Assembly: GCA_001972305.1 (NCBI GenBank)
Contig: BDDD01000913.1
Location: forward strand, 124,001 to 188,000
Length of the DNA stretch: 64,000 nucleotides
Direction of reading: 5' to 3'
Source: Cephalotus follicularis
Lineage: Eukaryota; Streptophyta; Magnoliopsida; Oxalidales; Cephalotaceae
The position numbers and the translations under genes were made by a program. This document shows positions 1,797 through 59,228 of the stretch, piece by piece. The notes under the pieces are model-generated. The model had not been told where the DNA came from and ran no database searches. It saw nothing but the letters and a program-made list of their open reading frames with translations. How positions within the stretch are numbered: the first letter of the stretch is position 1; every line of letters begins with the position of its first letter.

Positions 1797-2470
1797 GTAA
1801 CATTTCCCAAGTGGAAGGAAGACAATGAGATTGTCAGATGCTGCATGATAATAGCAATGAGATATGACCTGCAACATTAGCATGAGTACGTGTCTGACCC
1901 AAGAGCTATCCGGCTTCACCTGCCAGAGTTGTATTGTGAGAAAAGTAGGACTGTCATGTACCAGCTCTCAAAGGAGCTTTTCAACACCAAGATGCCAGAG
2001 GGAGCATCTGTGAACGATCATTGTCTGAAAATGATCAGCTGCATCGAGCAGCTTGCATCTTTGGGTTTCATCCATGTGATCCTTTGTCACTTCCTCCTTC
2101 CTACTCTCAATTCATCATTTACTTCAACATGAACAAAGTTGAGGTATCTCTTTCTGAGCTCCTTAACATGTTGAGGGATGTTGAGATTCATCTCCCCAAG
2201 TCCAAACATGTGATGCACTTGACCCACACTTCCCAGAACAAAACAAAGGGGAAGAATGCCTTTGCGAAAGACAAGGGCAAAGGCAAGCAGGCAAGGCATA
2301 AGGCAGTGCAACCTTATGGAAGGCCACAGGCAGCTGCATCCGCTCCAAGGGTGGCATCTGCGGCGGCATTTATAGCCTCAACATCAACCGAGCCCCCTCT
2401 AAAAGGCCTATGTTTTTACTGTGGTGTAGCAGGGCATTGGAAGAGGAACTGCAAGAAGTTCCTGTCTTCC
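1797..2470 (+). pseudogene. C1 gag polyprotein remnant with CCHC knuckle
   Basis: This is the copia gag (UBN2 type) nucleocapsid region. A KWKEDNEIVRC-like stretch, a KMISCIEQLASLGF stretch and the LLNMLRDVEIHL helix are typical of plant copia gag. The zinc knuckle CFYCGVAGHWKRNC (CX2CX4HX4C) lies near 2410-2455. An in-frame TAG at ~1879 and a frameshift near 2070-2100 break the gene; the frame open from 2021 carries the second half and runs on into the protease. The start is not preserved. Confidence 0.8.
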
Positions 2471-2499
2471 ATTGGCAAATCTCAAGGCAAAGGTGAGTC

Positions 2500-3115
2500 T
2501 TCAATATTTATGATTCAAATAAATATGGCTATCGATAAGAGTTATCCTACTACTTGGGTAGTAGATAATGGATGTTCCTCACACATTTGTGTTAATGTGC
2601 AGGACCTTCAAGGAAGTAGAACCCTTGCAAAGGGAGAAGTGGACCTGAAGGTAGCTGATGGAACAAGTGTTGAACCATTAGCTATAGGATCTACTTGTAG
2701 TTTATTGCCCACTGACAAGAGCCTTGAGCTCAAGAACACTTTATTTGTACCTTCCTTATGGAAGAACATCATTTCTATTTCAGCACGTATGGCTGATGGC
2801 TTTAGTTATATTATTAAAGACAAGAGTTGCTCTTTATATAAGAATGATGTTTTGTATGTAGAGTGTTTTGTTGACAATGGGTTATACATAATAAATAGTC
2901 ATGTTAATTTAAATATTGAAAAAGGAACCAAAAGAAAGAGAGATGACATTAACCAGACATACCTCTGGCACTGTAGACTTGGTCACGCCGGTGAAAAAAG
3001 AGTCTATAGGTTGGTTAGTGAGGGATATCTTGATATTTCTCATAGTGAATCATTTCCAACCTGTGAACCTTGTCTCAAAGAGAAAATGGTCAAATCACCC
3101 TTTATGGGACAAGGA
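2500..3115 (+). pseudogene. C1 protease and GAG-pre-integrase region
   Basis: This stretch continues the gag frame. The aspartic protease motif reads VVDNGCSSH near 2555, where copia elements normally have D-T/S-G, so the catalytic DTG is now DNG and the protease is probably inactive. Downstream, the GAG-pre-integrase zinc-binding signature has LWHCRLGH near 2960 and a CEPCLKEKM cysteine pair near 3065. This domain precedes the integrase core in copia polyproteins. Confidence 0.8.
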
Positions 3116-3835
3116 GAGAAGTTTATAGTCTTATTGGGCCTAGTGCACATAGATGTGTGTGGCCCAATGCCTATTCAGGCAAGAGGTGGTTATTCCTACT
3201 TCATAACCTTTACGATGATCTTTCACGGTACATGTACTTGTACTTGATAAAGCACAAGTCTTAAGCATTTGAAAGGTTCAAAGAATTCATAATTGAAGTA
3301 GAGAAACAAACTAGAAATAGTATTAAAACTCTACTATCATATCGTGGAGGCGAATATCTTTCCACTGAATTTCTAGGTTATCTCAGGGAAAATGGGATTC
3401 TCTCTCAGTGGACTTCTCCAGGAACACCACAGTATAATGGTGTATCAAAAAAGAGAAACTGTACCCCATTAGATATGGTGCGAAGCATGCAAATATACCA
3501 CTGTCTTTCAGGGGACATGCCCTGGAAACCGCACTCCATTTGTTGAACAAGACACCGACAAAATCTACTCCCAGTACGCCATATGAGATATGGATTGGGA
3601 AGAAACCGCATCTTAATTACTTTAGGATCTGGGGTTGCTCAGCTTATGTGAAGTTAGCATAAGTAAATAAGTTAGAGGTTAGGTCAGTTAAATGCAAGTT
3701 TGTAGGCTATCCCAAGAATTCTATGGGATATTACTTCTACTACGTCGATGAGAACGAAGTGTTTGTCTCAAAGCATGCCACCTTCCTAGAGAAAGAGTTT
3801 TTATTAGAAGAATCTAGCGGAGTAGAGTTGAGCTA
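3116..3835 (+). pseudogene. C1 integrase core, catalytically broken
   Basis: The first catalytic aspartate is present in HIDVCGP near 3150. A frameshift near 3215-3225 ends the long frame at 3247; the next frame continues with DDLSRYMYLYLIKHKS. The second catalytic position, normally SDRGGEYL, reads SYRGGEYL near 3345. The glutamate position, normally VSERRN, reads VSKKRN near 3450. Two of the three DDE residues are therefore lost, and more stops follow. Family assignment is secure from the surrounding conserved blocks. Confidence 0.8.
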
Positions 3836-4019: not shown

Positions 4020-4935
4020 TTACCTAGGAGCAATATTAGATATACACTCGGTGAAATGGCAGGAAGCCATGAAATCCGAAATTGACTCTATGTACTCCAA
4101 CCAAGTCTAGGACTTGGTAGTAGATGCACTTGAGGGAAGTGCTCCCATAGGGTACAAATGGCTCTTTAAGAGAAATATTGGAGAGGATGGGAAGGTTAAC
4201 ACCTTCAAAGCAAGGCTAGTAGCCAAGGGCTACAAACAGAAAGAGGGGATAAACTATGAAGAAACCTTATCTCCTCTTTCCATGCTTAAATCCATTCGGA
4301 TTTTGCTTGCTATTACTGCACACCATGACTATGAGATATGGCAGATGGATGTGAAGATGGCATTCTTCAATGGACACATTGAAGAAGACATCTATATGAC
4401 CCAACCTGAGGGTTTCATATCTCGTAGTAAGGACCACAGGGTGTGCAAACTCAATCGATCCATTTATGGATTGAAGCAAGCCTCTAGAAGCTGGAACATC
4501 TGTTTTTATGAAAAGGTCAAAGAGTTTGATTACATCAAAAATGATGATGAACTATGTGTGTAGAAGAAATTGAGTGGGAGCTCAGTCGTATTCTTGATTC
4601 TGTATGCTGATGACATACTACTCATTGGGAATGATGTAGATATGTTGACTAAAACTAAGAAATTGTTGTCCACAGTTTTCTCCATGAAGGATTTGAGAGA
4701 AGCATCCTATATCTTAGGAATTGAGGTCTATAAAGATAGACCTAAAAGGATGCTTGGACTATTCCAATCATTATACATAGACAAAGTGATAAAGAAGTTT
4801 AGCATGAAAAATTCCAAGAGAGGCTACCTACCTCTCTGTCATGGAATTAAGCTTTCTAAATCAATGTCTCCTAAGACATCGGATGAAAAATAGCACATGA
4901 TGCATATTCCCTATATTTCTGCAATATGGAGCATC
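4020..4935 (+). pseudogene. C1 reverse transcriptase (RVT_2)
   Basis: The copia RT domain shows the ARLVAKGYKQKEG block, the MDVKMAFFNG block, the CKLNRSIYGLKQASR block, and the active site LYADDILL near 4605-4620 with both aspartates kept. Stops at 4561 (TAG) and 4891 (TAG) interrupt the frame. The domain is cut at 4935 by insertion of C2; the next codons are found at 28537. Confidence 0.9.
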
Positions 4936-5402
4936 TGTTGGAACCCGGGAAGGGTCCCGGTCGATTTTGGGTCTAGGATGCAAGTGTGTATAATTTTAAT
5001 TTTTCAAAAACTACCAAGACACGAAGTCAAGGTCACACTTACATCTTACTACAAAAATCTATGCGCCTAGGATCTCCGTTTAATATTCAATCGAACAAAA
5101 CGAAAAGTCAAGCATACATCCACTTAACCGAAACCAATTCAGTAAACAACAAAAACATAAGATTAGGAACCATACCAACGGTGGCGGCTCCATCACTTTG
5201 CCGCTACACGCTTGCTGAAGCAACTGCCGATTACTGGCTCCACTGCCGGTTTTTGGCCAGTCAACGAAAAAATCAACCAAGACACCAACGGACTCCAAAA
5301 AATATGCTCAGCTTGTTTCTAGAGGAGACGCGTTGGGAAGCGCTCTGGAAGGCGGCGAGTTCAGACTCAGTGCGACTCAGTCAACGCTTCATTGACCGGC
5401 GG
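4936..5402 (-). repeat. C2 3' LTR, first piece (LTR-C)
   Basis: It matches 26022-26475 nearly base for base. It starts with the LTR terminus next to the GCATC target duplication and stops at 5403, where LTR-B of G3 begins. The open frame over 4986-5453 is chance. Confidence 0.85.
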
Positions 5403-7195
5403 TGTCAAACCTGTTCCCTACAAAAACTGATATCCTACTTAGAATGGATATGACGTTCCACATGACAACTTCCTTTCGGAAGTCACCACATGGTTTATAT
5501 AAAACTCACTTTAAACTTGGAAATCAAAAAGTTAAACGTTTCCAAAACTTTGAAAATTTTTCTAACTCTTAAATTTTTACAAAAATCGGGCATGTAGTAT
5601 CTTTTTATAGGACTATGCGCCCTGTAAAGAAAAACACAGTTTATATACACACTCCCGAAGGAGGAATCAACAGTTTTAAAATGGGCTCAGCCCTCAGCAA
5701 ACCACAATATAAAGCAGTAAACATGGGTTGGGCTCAGCCTCAACCATTTCAACAAGCAATAAAAGTAAATCTATAGGGCTCGGCCCTTTTTATCAAAACC
5801 ATAAGAGAAAACGTTTATATAAAAACATAAGTACATGCATAATTAAATATTGATGTGGAATGCTATGCATGTGTTAGAATCCTGGTAGCATGCCCTGCCT
5901 CCGTGGTCAATCATCAACAGCAACAAACTAGCAATCACTTACCATCTCGCCTTTATCTGGAAGGGAAAGAAAAGAGAGGGGGTTAGTCCAAATGACTAAG
6001 TGAGTAGAAACATCAAATACATTTCCCATGACTATATATCGAATAAAAAGAAAAATGATATAAGCTGAAAGTATAATGCAATGTAAATCTAAGGCGAGAA
6101 AAGAAATCAAATATCACAAAAGATATCGAGATCACAAGAGATATCGAGGTCACAAATGATAACGAGATCACATAGGATATTGAGATCACAAAGGGATATA
6201 GATATTCTCGATATGAAAACGAAATCCACGAATATAAATACAATCTACGATGTAAATGAGAATCATAAGTGTAAAAGAAATCTGGGAAGGAGATATCGAT
6301 AAATAAAAGAAACGCTATAACTCAACAATGCAGTTAGCATATGAATCCATAGAACAATCTCAATGATCAAGTCAATACTCGACAATCAATTCCACAGTCA
6401 TGAACATAGACATTAACAAACTTTATAAATGAAACTCGGAAACCAACGATGAAAGTGCTGTTGAACAAACTCAAGGCTCAAGACTCCCCAAGTACAATAA
6501 AATCCGAGTACATAAACATATCAAGAATCACGGATGTGATCAACAATCATGAATAGCCCAATAGCAAGACTTCAATGAACTAAGAAATGACTCAACAAGT
6601 CCGCTAAACAAATATCATACTCAAAACAATATTCAAATAAATGAAGGTCACAACAATATCAAGTATCTGCATATCAAGCTAAAAGATACGATCATGAAAA
6701 TATCAATATCAAGAATGTAATATGTGCCCGAAGAATCATAAACAACAAATATAAGGGGATGCTGGTACCAATCCTGTCACTATCTCATATCCCCGCCAAA
6801 TCACATGGCGTCATATCATATCCCCGCCAAATCACATGGCGTCATAAAATAACCGCTGCAGCAATAATAAAGGCCAATAGGCTACAGGATGTGATCATCA
6901 TCCATCATACACCGGTGCAGAGTGCCTATGGTAAGCGTAACATCCAAACCTCGCATGAGGGGCTGGCATATACCGCATGGACCCTAGCCCTCGCCGAGGA
7001 AACCCGCACGCATACTCAACCTCATCCGAGGGACCCACGTGCAATATATATCAACAACCAAACACAGTCCAATAGGAGGGTAATGGAGCAGCTCTGCTGC
7101 AGTCACACTCAGCATACCATCATAGACAATAGTATGCCGCAGATCCATGTATGGAACCCGGGGGCAGTTTCCACATAACACCCCATCATAGACCA
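5403..7195 (-). repeat. LTR-B, left part (G3 3' LTR)
   Basis: It aligns with the solo LTR-B at 42424 onward: a shared start with GATATCCTA, the AAATGGGCTCAGCCCTCAGCAA-type block near 5680, the GGGGTTAGTCC box near 5980, and the CCGCCAAATCACATGG repeats at 6790-6850. It also shares the CATACACCGGTGCAGAG block near 6905 and the CATCATAGACAATAGTATG block near 7120. Imperfect ~20-bp GATATCGAGATCACAA units run through 6118-6210. It breaks off at ~7195 in a deletion shared with the G1 left LTR. Confidence 0.8.
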
Positions 7196-8081: not shown

Positions 8082-9218
8082 CTAGAACAAGTGCGGGTAG
8101 CGTTCTCGGATGTCCTCCTCACGTTCCCAAGTCGCCTCATCAGGTTTGTGAAACTGCCATTGAACCTCGACCATAGAAATGGTTTGGTTCCTCAAAGTCT
8201 GCGTCTTCCGATCGAGAATCCGCACAGGTAACTCCTCACAAGATAGATCATTCTGTACAGGAACAGTATCATAATCCAGGACATGTGACGCGCAAGCCCG
8301 TAGCATATCCTCCAAGGTCTGGATGGTACGCTCAGACTGCCCATCGGTCTGAGGGTGGAAGGCAGTACTCAAGTTCAGCTTCGTCCCGAAGGCTGACTGA
8401 AACCTCTTCCAAAGGTTAGAAGTGAAGATAGCATCTCTATCACATACGATGCAGACTGGAACCCCGTGCAGCCTCACTATCTCTTTCACATACAGTCGAG
8501 CCAGCTTGCTCGCAGAATCCGTAACGTGTGTCGGTAGAAAGTGCGCTGATTTGGTGAGTCTATCTACGATGACCCACACAGCATTATGACGGTTTCGAGT
8601 CAAAGGAAAACCCGAAATGAAATCCATTGTAACATGTTTCCACTTCCACTCTGGAATTGGCAAAGGTTGTAGCAAACCTGCCGGTCTCTGGTGTTCGGCC
8701 TTAACTATCTGGCAAGTCCAACACTTCGCCACATACTCGGCAATCTCCCGCTTCATGCCGGGCCACCAATAACACTTCTTCATGTCTTGATACTTTTTTG
8801 TGCTACCAGGATGAATGTTGTACATGGATTTATGATCCCCGCAGAGTAGCTCATCCTTCACCCTAGGTTCATTCGGAAGACATACACGTCCCCGATATCT
8901 CATAATACCGTCTTCGTGTATTCTGAAATCAGACTCTGAATCCAGATTCTCTCGAATCCTCTGCAATTCAGGATCATGTGGTTGTGCCTCTTTGATGCGA
9001 TGCAGTAACACTGGTTCTACTCGCATGTCTGCTAGAATGATTCCCGGTGACTGATTAAAAGGGTACCATTCTTGGAAGTCTTCCAGCATCTTCCATTGTG
9101 ACACCATCGTACTAGCAAGAATAGCCTTGCGGCTCAAGGCATCAGCGACTACGTTCGCTTTCCCCGGGTGGTACTGGATGCTGCAGTCATAATCGTTAAA
9201 GAACTCCACCCACCTGCG
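8082..9218 (-). pseudogene. G1 integrase and chromodomain-like tail, internally deleted
   Basis: Reading from 9218 down, the frame opens with the RNase H/spacer motif HPGKANVVADALSR. It continues with the integrase zinc-binding HHCC domain (IHPG...YWWPGMK...CWTCQIVKAEHQ) and the core with MDFISGFP, VCDRDAIFTS and QTDGQSERT, so all three catalytic D, D, E residues are present. After the DMLRACA block the frame jumps directly to SHVLDYDTVPVQ. The usual ~200 residues of the C-terminal integrase half are missing without breaking the frame. The tail LRNQTISMVEVQW...WEREEDIRERYP resembles the Tekay chromodomain. Confidence 0.9.
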
Positions 9219-10400
9219 CTATCTCATGTTCAGCGTGTCCTGGCAGAACAGGTACCTCAAGCTTTTATGATCGGTCAAGATTTCAAACTGCGCCCCATAA
9301 AGATAGTGTCTCCACTTCTGAAGGGCGAAGATAATAGCTGCAAGTTCAAGGTCATGAGTTGGGTAGTTTCCCTCGTACGGTTTAAGCTTCCTTGAGGCAT
9401 ATGCAATCACTCTGCCTCGCTGCATCAATACACAGCCCAAACCCTTTCCCGATGCGTCACTGTAGAATGCAAAGCCCTCATTACCTTCAGGTAATGCCAA
9501 GATGGGAGCGAAAACCAACTGATCCTTCAGTTTACGGAAACCAGTTTCGCAACCTTCATCCCAGACAAACAAAGTCTTCTTCTGGGTTAGTCTAGTCAAA
9601 GGCTCAGCTATTCTTGAGAAATTCTGGATAAACCTCCTGTAATATCCCGCCAAGCCAAGAAAACTGCGTACCTCCGTTACATTCTTCGGCTGTGGCCAAT
9701 CTCGTACCATCTCTGTCTTTGATGGATCCACCGCCAAACCTTCTCCAGATACAATGTGACCAAGAAAGATCACATGGTCAAGCCAAAATTCACACTTACT
9801 GAATTTGGCATACAGCTTGTGCTCTCGGAGAATCTGTAGAGCCAACCTCAGGTGGGAAGCATGCTCTTCCTCACTTTTCGAGTATACAAGTACGTCGTCA
9901 ATGAACACAACGACGAACTGGTCCAAGTACGGTCGAAACACATCGTTCATCAATGACATGAACGCAGCCGGTGCATTTGTAACACCAAAAGGCATCACCA
10001 GGAATTCATAGTGACCGTATCTTGTCCGAAAGGCAGTTTTCTCTATATCTCCTTCCCTCACCCTCAACTGGTGATATCCTGTTCTCAGATCAAGCTTCGA
10101 GAATACTCTCGCTCCTTGCAACTGATCGAATAAATCCTCGATGTGGGGTAAAGGGTATTTATTCTTGATAGTTGCTATGTTCAACATTCAGTAATCGATA
10201 CAGAGTCTCATCGACCCATCCTTATTTTTGACAAACAGCATAGGTGCACACCACGGTGAAACACTGGGTCGTACAAAACCTTTATCAATCAGGTCTTGTA
10301 ATTGCAGCTTTAGCTCTCGCAACTCAGCCGGAGCATCCGATAGGGTGATTTAGAGATAGGAGCCGTTCCATGAACAAGGTCAATAACGAACTCCATACTC
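9219..10400 (-). pseudogene. G1 reverse transcriptase and RNase H
   Basis: The frame holds the RT blocks [36 protein letters not shown] and the active site VFIDDVLV. RNase H follows with [21 protein letters not shown] and LTDHKSL. It is bounded by two stops: TGA at 10188-10190 where related elements have DYR, and TAG at 9219-9221 where they have a glutamine in NMRQRRW. Upstream of the TGA the RT continues in frame to ~10310, after a one-base loss near 10330. Both stops are explained by single C-to-T changes. Confidence 0.9.
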
Positions 10401-49185: not shown

Positions 49186-50600
49186 CTATGCTACTAGCAA
49201 TGGCTGAAGCAATCCATCTAGCCTTTGATGTTCTACCTTAACTTGTTGACACGTTAAGCAGGAAAAAACATACTCTACTATCTTCCTCTTCATGTCATTC
49301 CACCGATAACTGAGCTGCAAGTCTCGGTACATCTTGGTTCTCCCTTGATGTACTGAGAAACTGGACTCACCCTTCAGCCCCTTACTGTTAGGAACACAAA
49401 CTCTGTCCTGAAACCTTGAAAATTCATCACCATGAAAAGAGAACTCGGGTTTCAACCCTCCTTGACTATTTGATGCAACCTTATGCAAGCCTTCATCCAT
49501 ACCTTGAGACTCTCTGATTCTATCCAACAACCACGGCCGTGTCTGAATCTGAGCAATTGTCAAGCAAGCTAATCGGCGACTCAAGGCGTCTGCAATCACA
49601 TTAGCTTTTCTTGGGTGGTACTATATCTCACAATTAGTCATTAAGTAACTCCATCTACCTCCTTTGTCTCATATTCAGATCCTTTTGGGAGAAAAGGTGC
49701 TTCAAACTTTTATGATCTATGTAAACACAAAACTTGGTGCCATATAAGTAATGCCTCCATTTGCATAGTGCAAAGAAGATCGCTGCTAACTCTACATCAT
49801 GAGTCGGATAACTCTCCTCATAAGGTTTCAGCTTCCTTGAAGCATAGGTCATCACCTTCCCATACTGAATCAAAACGCAACCCTAACCGCTCCCTGATGC
49901 ATCACTGTACACTACGAAGTCCTCACTGCCTTGTGGCAAAGCCAAGATCGGCGCAGAAATCATACAGTGGTTTAACTCCTGAAAACTCCCTTCACAACTA
50001 TCATCCCAAACAAACACTGTCTTTTTCTACATCAACCAGGTTAAAGGTGTAGCTATTCGTGAGAATCCCTCGACAAAATGGCGATAATACCCCGCTAAGC
50101 GAAAGAGACTATGGACTTCTGTCACTTTTGTCGGCCGTCTCCAACCTTTCACTGCTTCTATCTTTGTTGGGTCTACTGATAAACCGACACTGGAGATGAC
50201 GTGAACAAGAAAAGCTACCTTTGACAACCAAACTCACATTTGTTAAACTTGGTATACAACTGGTGGTCTCTCAAAACTTGCAATGCCAAGGGCAGATGTT
50301 CCACATGCTCCTCCATAGTCTTGGAGCACACCAAGATATCATCGATGAAGACTACGATGAACTAGTCAAGATATAGATTAAACACCCTGTACATAAGGCT
50401 CATGAATGCAGCAGGGGCATTGGTCATCCCAAACGGCATTACAACGAATTCAAAGTGTCCAAACCGTGACTTAAAGGCTGTGTTTGGAATATCTTCGACT
50501 CTAACTCTGAGTTGATCATATCCTGACCTCAAATTCAAGTTGGAGAACATCGAATAACCTCTTAACTGGTCAAACAATTCAGCAATATATGGTAGTGGGT
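49186..50600 (-). pseudogene. G2 reverse transcriptase, RNase H and integrase zinc domain
   Basis: RT blocks [15 protein letters not shown] and [14 protein letters not shown] lie at 50577-50362, the active site VFIDDILV near 50345, and LFRLAGYYRHFVEGFSRIA at 50227-50027. RNase H is at 49873-49655 ([25 protein letters not shown]). The integrase zinc-binding region is at 49599-49186 (CLTCQQVKVEHQR). Stops and small frameshifts separate the blocks. Confidence 0.88.
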
Positions 50601-51402: not shown

Positions 51403-52262
51403 CTCAACTGTCATGCCATGAACCATGGGAGGACCCCACGGCTCGGCGCACGAGAAACCATCCATACGATCTATCTTTATAGATAGCATAATACCCAAAA
51501 CTACGCTATAAATTAAAACTTTAATCATCAACCATACAGCAAAAAATAACCATTCAGATACTTGCATAAATAAACCCAAAGGTTATAGATAACATTCAAT
51601 ACATATGTCTGTAGCATGGCCACAAGTCGGCAGGTCGATGCAACTGAAACACAAGTCTTATACAAGGTAGATAAAACAAAAACTGAACTACAACTGGAAG
51701 TCCTGTCTTCAAGGTCCGATCCAACTCACTTCAACGCATTCTCAGCACTCGACCCTAAAAAGTTGTGCCCATTTTCAGAATGGGTCAGCCAAACAAGGCT
51801 ATGTAGGCAATACTATATGCAATGAAGTGAATATGTATATATAGATATATGCATAGCATGTGAAATGCATGAATGCCAATTATGGACAACGTTAGTATAT
51901 CAACCGTCCCTAACCAGCGGCATACTTAATTAGTCATAACCATAGAAATTACCATCCATACACCCTAGGTCTATAGACACTCCATAAGTAAATCCACAAC
52001 CATCCATGAGCACAAAAAATCCATAAGGTCTAAGTACCACTCTGCCTCTCCGATCCGAGATGGTACATACATTGTCTACACACTCTCCTTGTCATAGTTG
52101 ATAGAGCTGAGATAACACTGACCACATCAACCATACCATAATGCTAGTCCTCATAGGTTCTAGCCCATAACAATATTTCCATTAGTCCATAACCATATTT
52201 ACATCAGTCTATTTGATACTTTGATACTATAGGTCCATCCCACTACAAAAAAAAGGGTTAAT

Positions 52263-52505
52263 GGCGAGGGTATATCCCCTCATCTTCCCCTCGCGGTTGA
52301 GTCAAACGAGAGGGCATGGCTAGGGCGATGCCCCTTGCAGGCTGCACGCCTACCTCGCGGATACCCTAGCCATGCCCTCTGCATAGGCTTCACACCTACC
52401 TCACCGGTACCCTCGCTATGCCAGGGCATGGCGAGGGCTTCAATTCTGCAGAATGGCAAGGGCATGGTGAGGGTAATTCCCCTCGCCATGCCCTTGCCAT
52501 TCTAA
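52263..52505. repeat. CACTA-2 left subterminal repeats
   Basis: Repeated GGCGAGGG / CCCTCGCC / GCCATGCCCT units occur in both orientations, typical of CACTA ends. Confidence 0.85.
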
Positions 52506-52769
52506 AGATCCTGCCGATGCTTCAATTAGCAAGATCTATTCCCCAATCCAAGCAAAACCTACATTTTTTTTCAGCAACCACAATAATAGTTCATATTGCA
52601 ATTGTCCTATGGACTCAATTCATAAATGCTCAATAATACATTTAATTCACATTAAAGTAACAAAATAATACAACTGAACTTAATATCACACTTATAAAAA
52701 CTGTATTAGATTTAGAAATAAACTGTTATAAACTGTATCAAAATCAACAATTGTAACCAAACTATGATT

Positions 52770-54399
52770 CAGAATTGCTATGGCCGGAATCCAGAGATGA
52801 CTGGGAGAGGTGATACCGGTTCTGTGGCGTACTTTGATCAGATCTAGATCGTCCCCATGAAGACGAAAATGGACTGGCAACCATTTGAGTCAGCTGACTT
52901 ATTTGATCCATCTGAGCCTGCAACGCAGTCTGAATCTGAGATATCTGCTATTGGAGGTCTCTGTCCTCGTCGTCCTAGGTCTAGCCTCTTATGGCTGTGA
53001 AATGAATGGGCGACTCTAACTTCCCATTGCTGATGGAGTACGAAGTGCTTGTGGTAGCATCTTCGTGGAAGTCATGTAGTTCCCCAAGCCACGAATCTTG
53101 CCCTTTCACGTACTTCCGGTCACCTCTGTCCATGCCACGACTTTGAAGGGCCCCTCCGTAGTATCTGACCCACTAGCAGCCTTGCAGTTCTCCAACAAAA
53201 AATATAAATTTAATCAGTTAAGTAATTAACATACAAATGGTAATTGACATATTCATTATAGTTTGTGACTCACAACCCTCCCCACTACAGTAGGAGGTGG
53301 AAGAGTGCCCTCTTTCACGCTCCGATGGGTGTCGTAGTATACATCCTCCCACTTTTTCCCCTTAGCTTCCTACAAGTCAAATGCTATTTTGTTAGATCTT
53401 TGAAACACAAATTAAGTTTATTAATCACCATAATTACAGGGTGTAGTACCCCAATCTTAAGTTGCCTATCTATCGTGTAGCTACCGCCAGTGTAGGTAGT
53501 GTGCAATTCGTTCGCTCTGTTGGTGGAATTTGTTCTTGCCCTCTTTGGAAAATCCTCTGGCATCCAGATGTCCACCATCTGATCCCACACTGGCTCTGGT
53601 ATCTCTGTTGGGTGATGCCGCTTGCACTCAGGACTCATCTGATGCACACCAACATTGATCATTAACTTATTTCTAAATTTATGTATCCACTTTGGGTAAT
53701 TCTCATGCATGTAACTGTTGAATGCAGGTCTGCTGTGTGCATCAAATGGCAGAAAGTGGAAGTACTCCTACAAAATATCAATGTCAAATAACAATAGAAA
53801 TAAAAATATCTTCAATAAAATTAATTGTTAACTGTAACAGTTTTACTCACCAGGAGCTTCTCCCACAGTAGTTCATTTTCTGAATCAGGCCACTGGCCCC
53901 ACGTTGTCCAAGGGTGCAATATTCTGGCATTGACAATGCCCGCTATTGTGTTCTTCGCATCCATATCCTCAAAACAGCTGCAATTAAACAAATATTAGTA
54001 CCAACATGATAGGTTAGTTTTTAAAAAATGTACTGAAATTACTTATTACTTACCCATCGACACTAATATAACGAACAAGCCGAGAATCCTTTGCTCCCTT
54101 TGGAGGCAAGTCCACTCCTCTACTAGCTCCCCTCATCCATCACTGATGAGAGCCTGATTCAAAAACATGGTTACGTTTGACTGTAAATATGTTTAACAAA
54201 ATATAACAAAAACATTAAACAATATGAAAAACAGTTTAAGGTGAAATGTTGTGACATAATAAATTTCCTTACTAGCACTGGGAACATTGGTATCCTACTC
54301 TCGTGCGTCTAACTCCATGTTGTTTGACTCGGGACACGTAGAACAGGAAGCTGTGGTGGAAGCGCCAGGATTAGATGAACGTGTCACCCTACGTGGCAT
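52770..54399 (-). pseudogene. CACTA-2 Transposase_24-type gene
   Basis: The start MPRRVTRSSNPGAST at 54399 matches the start in CACTA-1. Exons are separated by introns. The Transposase_24 block HENYPKWIHKFRNKLM...WDQMVDIWMPEDFPKRA lies at 53710-53530 and runs uninterrupted to YTGGSYTIDRQLKIG. Later exons give KKWEDVYYDTHRSVKEGTL, a GLGNYMTSTK block and a low-complexity C-terminal end. Stops occur in several exons. Confidence 0.85.
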
Positions 54400-54959
54400 C
54401 TCTACAAGAACTCACTATATTTAAAAACAATACAAATTCTATACAGTTGTTCTACTATATATTATCGAATTATAATGTCATGAAAAATTAGAAGATTTTG
54501 AATACTATTGCAAACATCCTTTACTACATATTCTACACTATTATGCATCTGAAGAACATGTTTAAGGAGTGTAACCAAAGCTTTCTTGAAAAAAATTATG
54601 TACACAAAATAACGATATATCCTACAGTAGACGTACGTATGCGAGAACTATTAAAATTAGACAATTCATGATTCACCCCTATGGAACGAATCATGAAAGG
54701 GAAGCTAATGTTTCTTTCGACATTAATCATAATAGATAATAGAATTCTATAATAAATTTAAACCTGATCAACCCTCAGACTTTCATTTCAATATAAAACG
54801 TACAAGATACTTCAATAATCTAAGAGATTAAAATTCACAACCTAGAAAAGCTCTTTTAGAATTGTGGACTGACTGCAACAGTAAATGTTATCACTATGTA
54901 GTTATATAATATATATATATAGGGCAAAGTGGGCATGAGCGTCGCGCTAAGAAGCGCTG

Positions 54960-55245
54960 CAATTAATAAATATTAACAGTTACTTAAAAAATTGCAAACA
55001 TACACATTCTCTCTGTCATAAAAATTGACGAAATAAAGCAACTCCACCGCTTGAAGACAAATACTATTCATAATATATTATTGAAAGGTGATATCCACTT
55101 GACCACTTCTACTTTTTTTATTTTCGTTTTTCTGGGATCCCATAAAGTGGCTGACTAATAAAATTCATGTGTTTGATGATGACCATGTAAATACAAACAT
55201 TTACTTAAAAAATACAAACATACACCTTCTCCCTCTCAAAACAAC
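54960..55245. repeat. Imperfect direct duplication upstream of the captured FRS ORF
   Basis: A ~45-bp stretch at 54973-55018 (TTACTTAAAAAATTGCAAAC, TACACATTCTCTC) is repeated at 55193-55238 with a few changes. A CT-rich leader follows at 55226-55285. An (AT)n tract lies near 54905-54920. Confidence 0.6.
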
Positions 55246-55302
55246 ACTCCCTCTCTTTCTCTTCTCCCTCGTAATCTCTCTTTCTCTCAAAAAAAACATC
55301 TT

Positions 55303-56629
55303 GTGGAGAATGTGTATGCAATGCGAGATAATAACAGTGAGTTCTCAAGTGATTATAGAAAATGGTTTCATAGCCGAAATGTGAGTAAAAGTGAGATAAG
55401 ATGGCAAGCTTTGGTTGAAAAATACGGTATACAGGTTGACAGCTGGCTTGCAAAAATGTGGGACTTACGATTTCACTGGGTCCCTGCTTTTCTCAAAGAT
55501 ACTTTTGTTGCCGGTATGACATCCAGTGGACGGAGTGAAAGCATTAATTCTTTTTTTGATGGGTTTGTGAATTCTAATACTCACTTGCCTGAATTTATTG
55601 AACAATATAGTAGAGCATTGATGTCACGTCGTCAAGCAGAAGAACGACAGGATTATTTGACAATGAATTCAAATCCTAAGTTAATAACAAGGTTTCCATT
55701 TGAGAAAACAGCTGCAGATTGTTATACAGCAATAATGTTCAAGTTGTTTCAGGCGGAGCTTCATGAGAGTATGAGTTGTTGGTATGAGATGGTGAGTAAC
55801 AACAATGCTGCCACGATATATGTTGTGGGGCTATGTGATGAGGACAAGAGGAAATGGTGGACCGTTGTGTACGATGAATCGGAAGGAGTGACTCTCAGAT
55901 GTGAATGTGCGAAGTTTGAGACCGAGGGATACTTTTGCAAACATATCCTAAGGATTATGCAGGAGAGACATCTTACTGTCATCCCCGAACAGTATATGCT
56001 GAAGAGGTGGACCATCGGTGCTAGGTATATAATGGATAATGGAGTTTGTACGAGCAAAGAAAATGAGAATACGGTAACTCCAATTATGGAATGGAGTCTT
56101 AAAGCACTAGCCACCAAAGCTGCACATAAAGCATCAAGTTCAATTGCCACATATAACGAATGTCGTTCTTTGTTGAATGGTTTCATGGGTAAGTTTGATG
56201 AGTTATGTTTGATGGACAACCAGTTTGTGCCTCCTGATGGTATTCGCAGTGAAGTTGGTTCTACTGTAATTTCTTCTGACATGCCTGGGATATCCATTCG
56301 AGACCCTCAAGTTGTGAGAACCAAGGGTCGTCCAAAGATTGCTTCACGAATTCCATCAGGGCAGACGAATAGTCAGAAGGAAAAAAAGAGACGTACGTGT
56401 TCCATATGTCTGGAGAAAGGACATTATATGACAACATGTCCAAAGAAAGCTAAGGTATGTAATATTTGATGCAGTTATTAATTTCATTTCTCAAAACTCT
56501 GTAGTCGTCGCTTTATTGATACTTCATAATTTAATTTTTTTTTTTGAACAGATGCATATGATCAATGAGGAGGACGATGTCTCTAATGCAAGCGGAGGAG
56601 AGGAAGGAATACCGAGTCAGCATTGTTAG
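55303..56629 (+). pseudogene. Captured FAR1/FHY3-related (FRS) gene, C-terminal half, two exons
   Basis: Exon 1 (open to 56454) and exon 2 (56552-56629) are joined by a phase-0 intron with GTATGT...TTGAACAG ends. The frame is open through 384 codons of exon 1 from 55303; the first in-frame ATG is at 55321. Residues ~55-110 carry the end of the MULE-type domain (VPAFLKDTFVAGMTSSGRSE, INSFFDGFVNSNT). A SWIM zinc finger CECAKFETEGYFCKHIL is at ~residue 205. A CX2CX4HX4C knuckle (CSICLEKGHYMTTC) is near the C terminus, and exon 2 adds an acidic end. FRS proteins are light-signalling transcription factors derived from MULE transposases; here the N-terminal FAR1 DNA-binding domain and most of the transposase-like core are missing. 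It lies inside CACTA-2, antisense to that element's own gene. The frame stays open upstream through a CT-rich leader to ~55183. A cellular gene of its own seems unlikely given the position. Confidence 0.85.
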
Positions 56630-56639
56630 GTGTGACTCT

Positions 56640-56758
56640 TTCATTGTGGGATAATGAAGATAATGAGTGAAAAGGAAAAATTCTGAGGTTTAATTTGTCT
56701 TAAATTGCCTTATTATTTCTATATGGAGCTTATTTACTTTTTGAATATCATTCCAGGA
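56640..56758 (+). other. Intron remnant before the GTP cyclohydrolase fragment
   Basis: An AT-rich stretch ends in a pyrimidine-rich acceptor CATTCCAG just before the coding homology at 56759. It suggests genomic DNA, not cDNA, was captured. Confidence 0.5.
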
Positions 56759-56980
56759 TAATGCATTGATTTTGAGTGGAGATGTGATGGTTGTCATTGA
56801 GGCTAACCATACTTGTATGATTTCTAGAGGGATTGAGAAGTTTGGGAGTAGTACAACTACTGTTGCTATTTTGGGTCTGTTTTCAACTGACAGGACAGCA
56901 AGGGCTATGTTTCTTCACCTGCAACCATCTTTTTTGGGTCTGTTTTTTCAATTTCTCATTCCCGGTGAAGATAAGTTTTA
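56759..56980 (+). pseudogene. GCH1: Captured GTP cyclohydrolase I fragment (C-terminal part)
   Basis: The frame reads ILSGDVMVVIEANHTCMISR then GIEKFGSSTTTVAILGLFST and ARAMFL, the conserved C-terminal block of plant GTP cyclohydrolase I, the first enzyme of pterin and folate synthesis. The zinc-ligand cysteine in HTCM is kept. Everything before this exon, including the other zinc ligands and the first half of the plant two-domain enzyme, is absent. After ~56930 the frame continues ~15 codons without homology to a stop at 56981. It cannot encode an active enzyme. Confidence 0.85.
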
Positions 56981-57481
56981 AGGATCTTTAAACTTTATTC
57001 TTGACTTTTTATGTATATTTTGTTTCAACTGCTTTAGTTACTGTTTAGCGTAATCTTCACTTGGTATTGACAAATTTATGATTACATTTTTGGAGTATGC
57101 GATCATGATTGTTTATACATTATCACTTGCTTTTCTACAAATTTTATGTATTTAATAGAAAACAGTTTGATGCATAATAAAAAACAGATATTATGTTAAT
57201 GTGTTGTTCTAAAATTTTAATACAAATTTCTTTCTGGCCCCAATTTGTTATTGTTCAATTTCAATTTAATGGATCGGATGCTACAATGTGTTGTCCAGTT
57301 TGTTTTGGGATCCAATGGATGATAGTGAGAGTTGGTAAGTTAAACGGAAAAAAAAAACAAATGTATCATCCACATTATGAATAAAGGTCTCTCTACAAGG
57401 CTATACAGATATATACAGATAGATGGTGATAATTAAACAAATACAATCATTGATTACCATTGATAATCCATGAGGCAAAAC
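56981..57481. other. CACTA-2 filler, no recognised content
   Basis: AT-rich sequence. A short frame at 57193-57384 has no family I recognise. It may hold UTR or intron pieces of the captured genes. Confidence 0.4.
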
Positions 57482-57812
57482 TTAGAAGCTAATTCCAGTC
57501 AATGAGACATTTGGTTGGGGCCAAGCCATATTAGAGTGTGACATATCATTGGCAGATGGAGACATGGGTGGAGTAAATGGTGAAGGAGACGTGACATTAA
57601 CTGAGGATGGAGAACCAGGTAAGAGGCTCATGGCTGCAGCTAAATCCCTCTACGTCATTGTTAGCTGCGAGCTCAAGCAAGCTAGCAAAAGTATCTTCGG
57701 TCTCAATAGTCAAGTGATTCATTTCTATGTTGCCAGGTCTATCTTCGTCAAAAGAAATAGCAGATTCTGTCAGAGATGGTGCAGGCTTTAACCTCTCTGA
57801 TCCACAGCACAT
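57482..57812 (-). pseudogene. Captured CCCH zinc-finger/ankyrin protein gene, middle deleted
   Basis: From 57812 the minus strand reads MCCGSERLKPAPS and MNHLTIETEDTFASLLELAA then NNDVEG, the N terminus of the plant CCCH zinc-finger family with ankyrin repeats (AtC3H30/66 type). At ~57640 it jumps to AAAMSLLPGSPSSVNV, PFTPPMSPSA and HSNMAWPQPNV, a conserved region near the C terminus of the same family. The ankyrin repeats and the paired CCCH fingers are gone, and the join is out of frame by one base, so the first frame stops at 57597. The second part ends at a TAA at 57482-57484. It is the third host fragment in CACTA-2. Confidence 0.82.
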
Positions 57813-57924
57813 ACTTTCATTTGATTAAAGAAACGACTGGAATTAAAAACTTCACCCATTAGACTCAACCTATGTGCAAAAGAGAGAGAGAGAGAGAAGT
57901 TGTCAAGTAGTTGTAAGGTTAGAA

Positions 57925-58111
57925 CATGGCGAGGGTAATAAGTGCCCTCGTCGTCAATTTCTAACATAGCGAGGGCATGACGAGGGAAACAGTGCCCTCA
58001 CCGTTTCTTTCTAATTAAAAAAAAATTAAAATGGCCAACAGTGAGGGCATTATGTGCCCTTGCCGTTGCCTTCTCCATGTGCCCTCGCCATTTCCCTGTT
58101 TTTTTGTAGTG
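57925..58111. repeat. CACTA-2 right subterminal repeats and terminus
   Basis: GGCGAGGG, GTGCCCTCG and GACGAGGG units in both orientations precede the terminal TTTTTTTGTAGTG. It mirrors 52241-52505. Confidence 0.88.
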
Positions 58112-59228
58112 CCCATAATGCGGTGTCCCAGCAGGTTCACCCTTAAAGTGGGTTCCTATAGGTCTATGTAACTTTCATACTATGTGGTCTAACACCCCTA
58201 ACCTTCATGACGGAATGAAGATTAGGAATGGGTTATCTGGTCAAGTCTCAAACAATATCAAACTATAAATCCATATCCATAAAAGCATTTAAAGGATAGG
58301 GACATAACCATAAAGGATCACGTGGGATCCATCCGTCAAAACAATTTCCATAACCATCCATACCATCCATATTCATATCTCTGTCCCTATCGGAGTTAAT
58401 AAAACAATGGAGAGGAAGTTCAACTAGAAGGTTCGTGTCCAAACATCCCAATTGAACTAACCTAACCATTTATGGAAAACTTCATTGAAATTACTTTTAA
58501 AGATTTATTTGAAGATCAATTGTATTAAAAGAGGGTTTACATAGGTTACACGCCCTTAGAGAAGCTTCCTATAGAACCCATTTGAAGATAAAAGAGTTTG
58601 TAGTTGAAAAGAGGTTGAAAACATATTGTTTTGTGTAAAACAGGGCACAAAGTGCCGACACTTTACACAAAGCATCGATAGTTAAAGACTTAGGCCAAAG
58701 CGTCGAAAGTTAGAGCAAAGCGTCGACGGTTCAAGAGCTTAGGCAAAGCGTCGACACTTTAACAAAAGCGTCGACGGTTACAAGTTTAACAGTCTCAACG
58801 TTTTCAGCTATTAACAGTTTAAAATCAATCCAAATTCATTTAAGCCATTTAAAACTTGATCCAAAGGAAGCTATAAGCTCTAACGATCGATTATAACTTA
58901 AAAACAGCTTTAAAACATTGAAATCAACATCCATAAACCCATAATCAAGATGAAAAGGAGATTAGAATCAAAATACCCAAAACTCTCAATTCTTTCTCCG
59001 ATTTCCATTTTAATCTGTAAGTAACCATAACAATCACCCTAACTCATCCATCTAATATATATAAATCAGTCCATACCCATATAACCATTCAATTCAATAT
59101 AATGCATAAGTTCAAAACATATATATATATATATATATATATAACCTACCTGTAACTATAGAAAATGAAGAACAGAAATGATTTGCTGTTAAATTCTCAT
59201 CCAACTGATCCTTCCTTGCTCAATTCTG

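Follow-up and report, generated by a model that had tools for sequence, protein, structure and literature searches.

We analyzed a 64,000-nucleotide stretch of the Cephalotus follicularis genome (contig BDDD01000913.1, positions 124,001 to 188,000), here called the window, in which a CACTA transposon at 52241-58111 encloses three kinds of coding fragment: one FRS/FAR1-like, one from a GTP cyclohydrolase I gene and one from a CCCH zinc-finger/ankyrin gene. This composite is non-autonomous, and none of its host-gene pieces is intact. Which transposon gathered these pieces, and how did they come to lie inside the CACTA element?

The CACTA element and its empty sites

The initial annotation, made from the window alone, had described perfect terminal inverted repeats (TIRs), subterminal repeats and a relic Transposase_24 gene. 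The TIRs, CACTACAAAAAAA, lie at 52241-52253 on the plus strand and at 58099-58111 on the minus strand, and are identical at 13 of 13 positions; this sequence is counted 936 and 911 times in the 1.58-Gb assembly, versus 79 and 84 times for a reversed control. The subterminal repeats are of the GGCGAGGG type: ATGGCGAGGG, allowing up to two mismatches on both strands, occurs 11 times in the first 270 bp and 8 times in the last 200 bp, versus three times in the 5401 bp between. The Transposase_24 (Ptta/En/Spm) relic is present at 53384-53767 on the minus strand, as a weak match to Pfam PF03004 that scores 20.5 bits, below the curated cut-off of 28.7. No other Pfam transposase was found in the nine CACTA backbone frames searched.

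Genome searches covered the assembly of 9746 contigs (C-numbers denote contigs) and scored the best candidates only: 40 of 4834, 40 of 177 for the FRS-like sequence and 40 of 6274 for the CACTA flanks, so that copy numbers are lower bounds. The CACTA element sits in a repeat that is very common in the genome (the copy here spans 51947-52240 and 58112-58363; 6274 candidate loci), which is useful for comparison with empty sites. With the two flanks joined, the match is continuous over the junction in 39 of 41 rows from the scored candidates; of the other two rows, one is a fragment of 79 nt and one the left flank of the window itself. All six empty sites that were read elsewhere in the genome lack exactly 3 nt relative to the joined flanks, at the junction. 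The target site duplication is therefore TCC, with its left copy at 52238-52240 and its right copy, now CCC through one substitution, at 58112-58114. The CACTA insertion at 52241-58111 is genuine.

Might unrelated contigs nevertheless have been joined inside the terminal repeats, the event that the initial annotation had named as fatal to its reading? The assembly is indeed repeat-rich and divided among many contigs. The empty sites speak against such a misjoin, however, because the continuous flanks and the exact 3-nt difference place both CACTA ends in one insertion; in addition, the window contains no N, and the right junction of the cargo offers almost no common sequence that could cause a false join. 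We regard an assembly artefact as very improbable.

The cargo and its parents

The extent of the cargo is given by a cargo-free sister CACTA element on C877. The sister matches positions 213-2161 and 2300-2675 of the window element at 89% and positions 5641-5871 at 79%, and it has 233 bp of its own sequence where the window element has cargo. Its termini are CACTAC on the left and GTAATG, with one substitution, on the right; by eye, it is flanked by a CGT/CGT duplication. TA and GA microsatellites lie in the sister at the positions where the cargo starts and ends. The comparison defines the cargo as window positions 54916-57880, about 3 kb flanked by two microsatellite tracts of the CACTA element, one of TA and one of GA. 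To its left is a CACTA backbone (52241-54915) that terminates in the TA microsatellite and shares large parts with C877 and other copies, and to its right a CACTA end (57881-58111) that begins in the GA microsatellite. The composite itself is single-copy as judged by a zinc-finger search, whose five matches (5 of 5 candidates scored) are the window, C1521 twice and the parent gene twice. There is thus no indication that the CACTA element has multiplied its cargo.

The FRS/FAR1-like, transposase-related fragment (55294-56647, plus strand) represents the SWIM part of such a protein, and is 98% identical to a copy on C628 and 97% to one on C5911. It retains a long open frame, 55183-56469, without FAR1 and MULE domains; within the FRS-like sequence, Pfam recognizes a SWIM domain in the frame 55306-56466. 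There were 177 candidate loci for this sequence; scoring the best 40 yielded 44 match rows, among them the window, with identities of 85-100%. The FRS-like sequence is a multi-copy repeat rather than a single host gene. In the copy on C628, interrupted frames encode FAR1, MULE transposase and SWIM domains, and the sequence is probably a transposase relic.

The GTP cyclohydrolase I fragment (56771-56918, plus strand) is 148 bp or 49 codons long, and gives a PF01227 match in the frame 56745-56981 with an E value of 1.2e-11. It is 92.6% identical to its parent on C1761, an open frame of 403 codons with two PF01227 stretches. In the whole genome PF01227 has eight matches (14 of 14 candidates scored); two are on C1761, and six are copies of the same end piece, found in the window, on C1521, C628 and C1067, and twice on C5911. 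The following segment (56919-57509, plus strand) is without recognized coding sequence, and is present wholly or partly on C628, C5911, C1521, C2062 and other contigs.

The zinc-finger cargo consists of two pieces on the minus strand: an internal piece at 57506-57647, beyond the zinc fingers and 97% identical to the parent, and an N-terminal and upstream piece at 57641-57880, 99% identical; a deletion that removed about 980 bp has brought the two together. The parent is an intact gene on C27 with a 734-codon open frame that encodes ankyrins and CCCH fingers, and the window differs from it at 6 of 374 positions. It is this identity that identifies the pieces. A Pfam search with the zinc-finger cargo gave no match, as the parent residues that it holds, those up to about 61 and from about 388 to 437, include neither the ankyrins (87-169) nor the fingers (265-330). 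The two pieces lie in different frames, and examination of the frames and domains of all three kinds of piece gave no indication that the composite encodes a working host protein.

The initial annotation had spoken of fragments of three unrelated host genes, in both orientations and with introns kept. The coding pieces are real and do lie on both strands, and the search for parental genes found one for the zinc-finger cargo and one for the cyclohydrolase piece. The same search with the FRS-like sequence gave repeat loci; as that sequence is repeated and transposase-like, two ordinary host genes are represented in the cargo, not three. As for introns, the FRS-like piece seems to keep one (GT...AG near 56458-56551, by eye), whereas the cyclohydrolase piece is intronless, having come from the interior of a single open frame, and the zinc-finger parts are two portions of a frame without interruption, together with sequence upstream of it.

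Mutator-like termini around the same cargo

The cargo begins with the left TIR of a Mutator-like element (MULE) at 54922-55295 on the plus strand. The TIR is 93% identical to each of two right-hand inverted ends of a MULE on C1521, and its first 240 bp are 95% identical to the left end of that MULE. It opens at 54922, directly after (TA)n, with the terminus GGGCAAAGTGGGCATGAGCG. The exact motif occurs 13 times in the genome (8 + 5), versus none for the reversed control. A low-copy MULE family has such termini at both ends at C591:490318-493386, C1521:325637-333126 and C2062:73259-78967, and the C591 and C2062 copies have (TA)n on both sides. Altogether (TA)n adjoins 8 of the 10 termini that were read: those of the window, C628 (one mismatch) and C5911, both of C591, both of C2062 and an inner right terminus of C1521. 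The two outer C1521 termini do not adjoin (TA)n. A Helitron origin for the left cargo piece was considered and rejected, as no CTRR end was seen by eye and C1521 has inverted copies at both ends.

On C1521 the tail of the FRS-like piece, the cyclohydrolase piece and the zinc-finger pieces follow one another in the same order as in the window (element positions 4296-5640, 97.4% identity), and the zinc-finger deletion of about 980 bp is shared, with the same junction. The host gene fragments, cyclohydrolase and CCCH, sit there between MULE termini. The inverted ends of this MULE are long TIRs, 240 bp at 99.6% identity, and the terminal pair, which spans a run of N, is flanked by a perfect 9-bp duplication, ATTATAATA, as is expected of Mutator-like elements. 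A scan of the C1521 stretch for CACTACA and TGTAGTG found just one lone TGTAGTG, outside the MULE.

These observations bear on the proposal, made in the initial annotation, that repeated capture at the DNA level had filled the CACTA element. One might think that the CACTA element itself took up a fragment of each of three host genes, each in its own event, because CACTA ends enclose the pieces and gene pieces are described in Pack-CACTA elements and in soybean Tgm-Express1 (PMC1947982, PMC8903248). But the same pieces, in the same order and with the same internal deletion, lie between MULE termini on C1521, which largely contradicts this explanation; moreover, the window cargo begins at a MULE terminus, and the sister CACTA element on C877 is without cargo. 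We assign next to no likelihood to capture by the CACTA element. Capture at the DNA level, probably in more than one step, stands; the MULE terminus and the C1521 copy argue against CACTA as its agent.

Is the FRS-like sequence the MULE family's own transposase? This could not be accepted as certain, since three other FRS loci (L031, L032 and L033) gave no match to the window-type MULE TIR; a terminus scan of the three loci found only a diverged 20-nt terminus in L032, with 3 mismatches. In L031, on C3659, an inverted repeat with arms of 169 bp at 97% identity (3611-3779 and 8482-8650) has the FRS-like copy starting immediately after one arm; no duplication was seen by eye at the outer ends of the repeat.

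What steps account for the composite? It is very probably a case of nested transposons, in which a Pack-MULE favouring TA microsatellites inserted into the CACTA element and had its right end removed by a subsequent deletion. The low-copy MULE family with GGGCAAAGTGGGCATGAGCG termini, mostly beside (TA)n, would have gathered host DNA stepwise, first as an FRS-like block with the 148-bp cyclohydrolase piece and later with the CCCH zinc-finger piece. In C628 and C5911 the FRS-like and cyclohydrolase sequences share a locus with one terminus of the MULE family and the zinc-finger piece is absent; all three occur on C1521 and in the window. The two cargo combinations thus exist in separate copies, so that capture probably took place stepwise, at the DNA level and within the MULE lineage. 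Divergence from the parents, 7.4% for the cyclohydrolase piece and 1.6% for the zinc finger, agrees with the proposed order, though the cyclohydrolase stretch is short.

The Pack-MULE would then have entered the TA tract of the CACTA element, as is suggested by the cargo-free sister element and by the presence of an exact MULE terminus at the tract. A later deletion would have fused the zinc-finger piece to the CACTA GA tract, removing the right end of the MULE. The alignments show the zinc-finger piece abutting the GA tract, with 0-1 nt in common when counted by eye. A GA tract inside the zinc-finger gene was considered as a partner in the deletion and rejected: C1521 has none at that place, and the tract belongs to the CACTA element.

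Some of the same observations would fit copied filler, in which repair synthesis at a break in the CACTA element switched to a Pack-MULE elsewhere and back, without MULE transposition. The window copy has only one MULE end; its right junction, with so little in common, sits in a GA microsatellite; and the other cargo junctions have 1-6 nt in common (alignments, by eye). The left edge of the cargo, however, is an exact MULE terminus beside (TA)n, as at C2062, C591, C5911 and C628 (one mismatch), and filler would rarely start there. We consider copied filler unlikely.

Several points weigh against insertion of a Pack-MULE followed by deletion. The C1521 terminal pair with the 9-bp duplication, 7490 bp in extent, encloses a run of 2214 N as well as an additional right terminus, 2931 bp from the left end, whose (TA)n flank is unlike the left flank. 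C1521 keeps only the tail of the FRS-like piece and, having lost most of it, is not the direct source of the window cargo. C628 and C5911 each have a single terminus of the MULE family in the stretches read. The apparent preference for (TA)n is a raw count over 10 termini, from which 4 of the 13 exact termini (C1691, C1726, C2339 and C8151) are absent. Finally, the window copy is without its right MULE end, so that we infer insertion by transposition from one end.

The neighbourhood of the CACTA element is rich in transposons. Retrotransposon frames lie in the window at 1949-3247 and 4111-4563 on the plus strand (Pfam gag_pre-integrase and RVT_2), and at 8082-10187 and 49186-49620 on the minus strand (Pfam RVT_1, RNase H and integrase H2C2).

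Related systems and implications

Gene pieces in CACTA elements are covered in a capture review (PMC13317346), and the window element resembles known cases in outward form. Tgm-Express1 of soybean is a 5.7-kb CACTA element with several unrelated gene fragments, for which chimeric transcripts have been demonstrated (PMC1947982). Its fragments are reported there as CACTA-carried, whereas those of the window are bounded by a MULE terminus and also occur in a MULE elsewhere. Pack-CACTA or Pack-TYPE elements (PMC8903248) likewise enclose, between CACTA termini, coding DNA that stems from several loci; capture in the window belongs, unlike theirs, to the nested MULE, with no evidence of capture or multiplication driven by the CACTA element.

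Among MULEs, the present family resembles Pack-MULEs in its long TIRs, the 9-bp duplication of the C1521 copy and its fragments of several genes, and nested insertions in MULEs are also on record (PMC3903597). The window copy differs in missing its right end and in being nested in a CACTA element. MuTAnT of Medicago (PMC4486113) and SaTar/AgS-MULE of guayule and rice (PMC5907723) are similar as well: they are MULEs found in microsatellites, TA above all, with long TIRs and, in some copies, 9- or 10-bp duplications, and in MuTAnT incomplete copies are frequent. MuTAnT ends are of the GGGGTTTGC type, unlike those described here. The family described here carries host gene pieces, whereas "capture" and "gene fragment" are absent from the available MuTAnT text, as are "gene fragment" and "host gene" from the available SaTar text, which terms three rice SaTar families non-Pack-MULEs. 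A partial literature search gave no clear precedent for a Pack-MULE that targets TA microsatellites or for one in a nested arrangement with a CACTA element.

What might the composite do? Judging from the sequence, a transcript from the FRS side would run antisense to the zinc-finger parent for about 374 nt, and the two parents might be affected by antisense or small RNA. A broader idea is that a TA-targeting MULE family gathers gene pieces stepwise as a Pack-MULE and deposits them in TA tracts of other transposons, thereby handing host DNA from one superfamily to another, and that CACTA transposase could then remobilize it. We put this forward tentatively, as a rather doubtful generalization.

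Gene fragments within a CACTA element need not be CACTA captures. If the C1521 copy and the sister CACTA element were set aside, the window element would count as a Pack-CACTA, and a survey that lets the outermost terminal repeats decide which element captured a gene can name the wrong superfamily. With a series of MULE copies and both host parents in the same genome, the steps of capture are datable.

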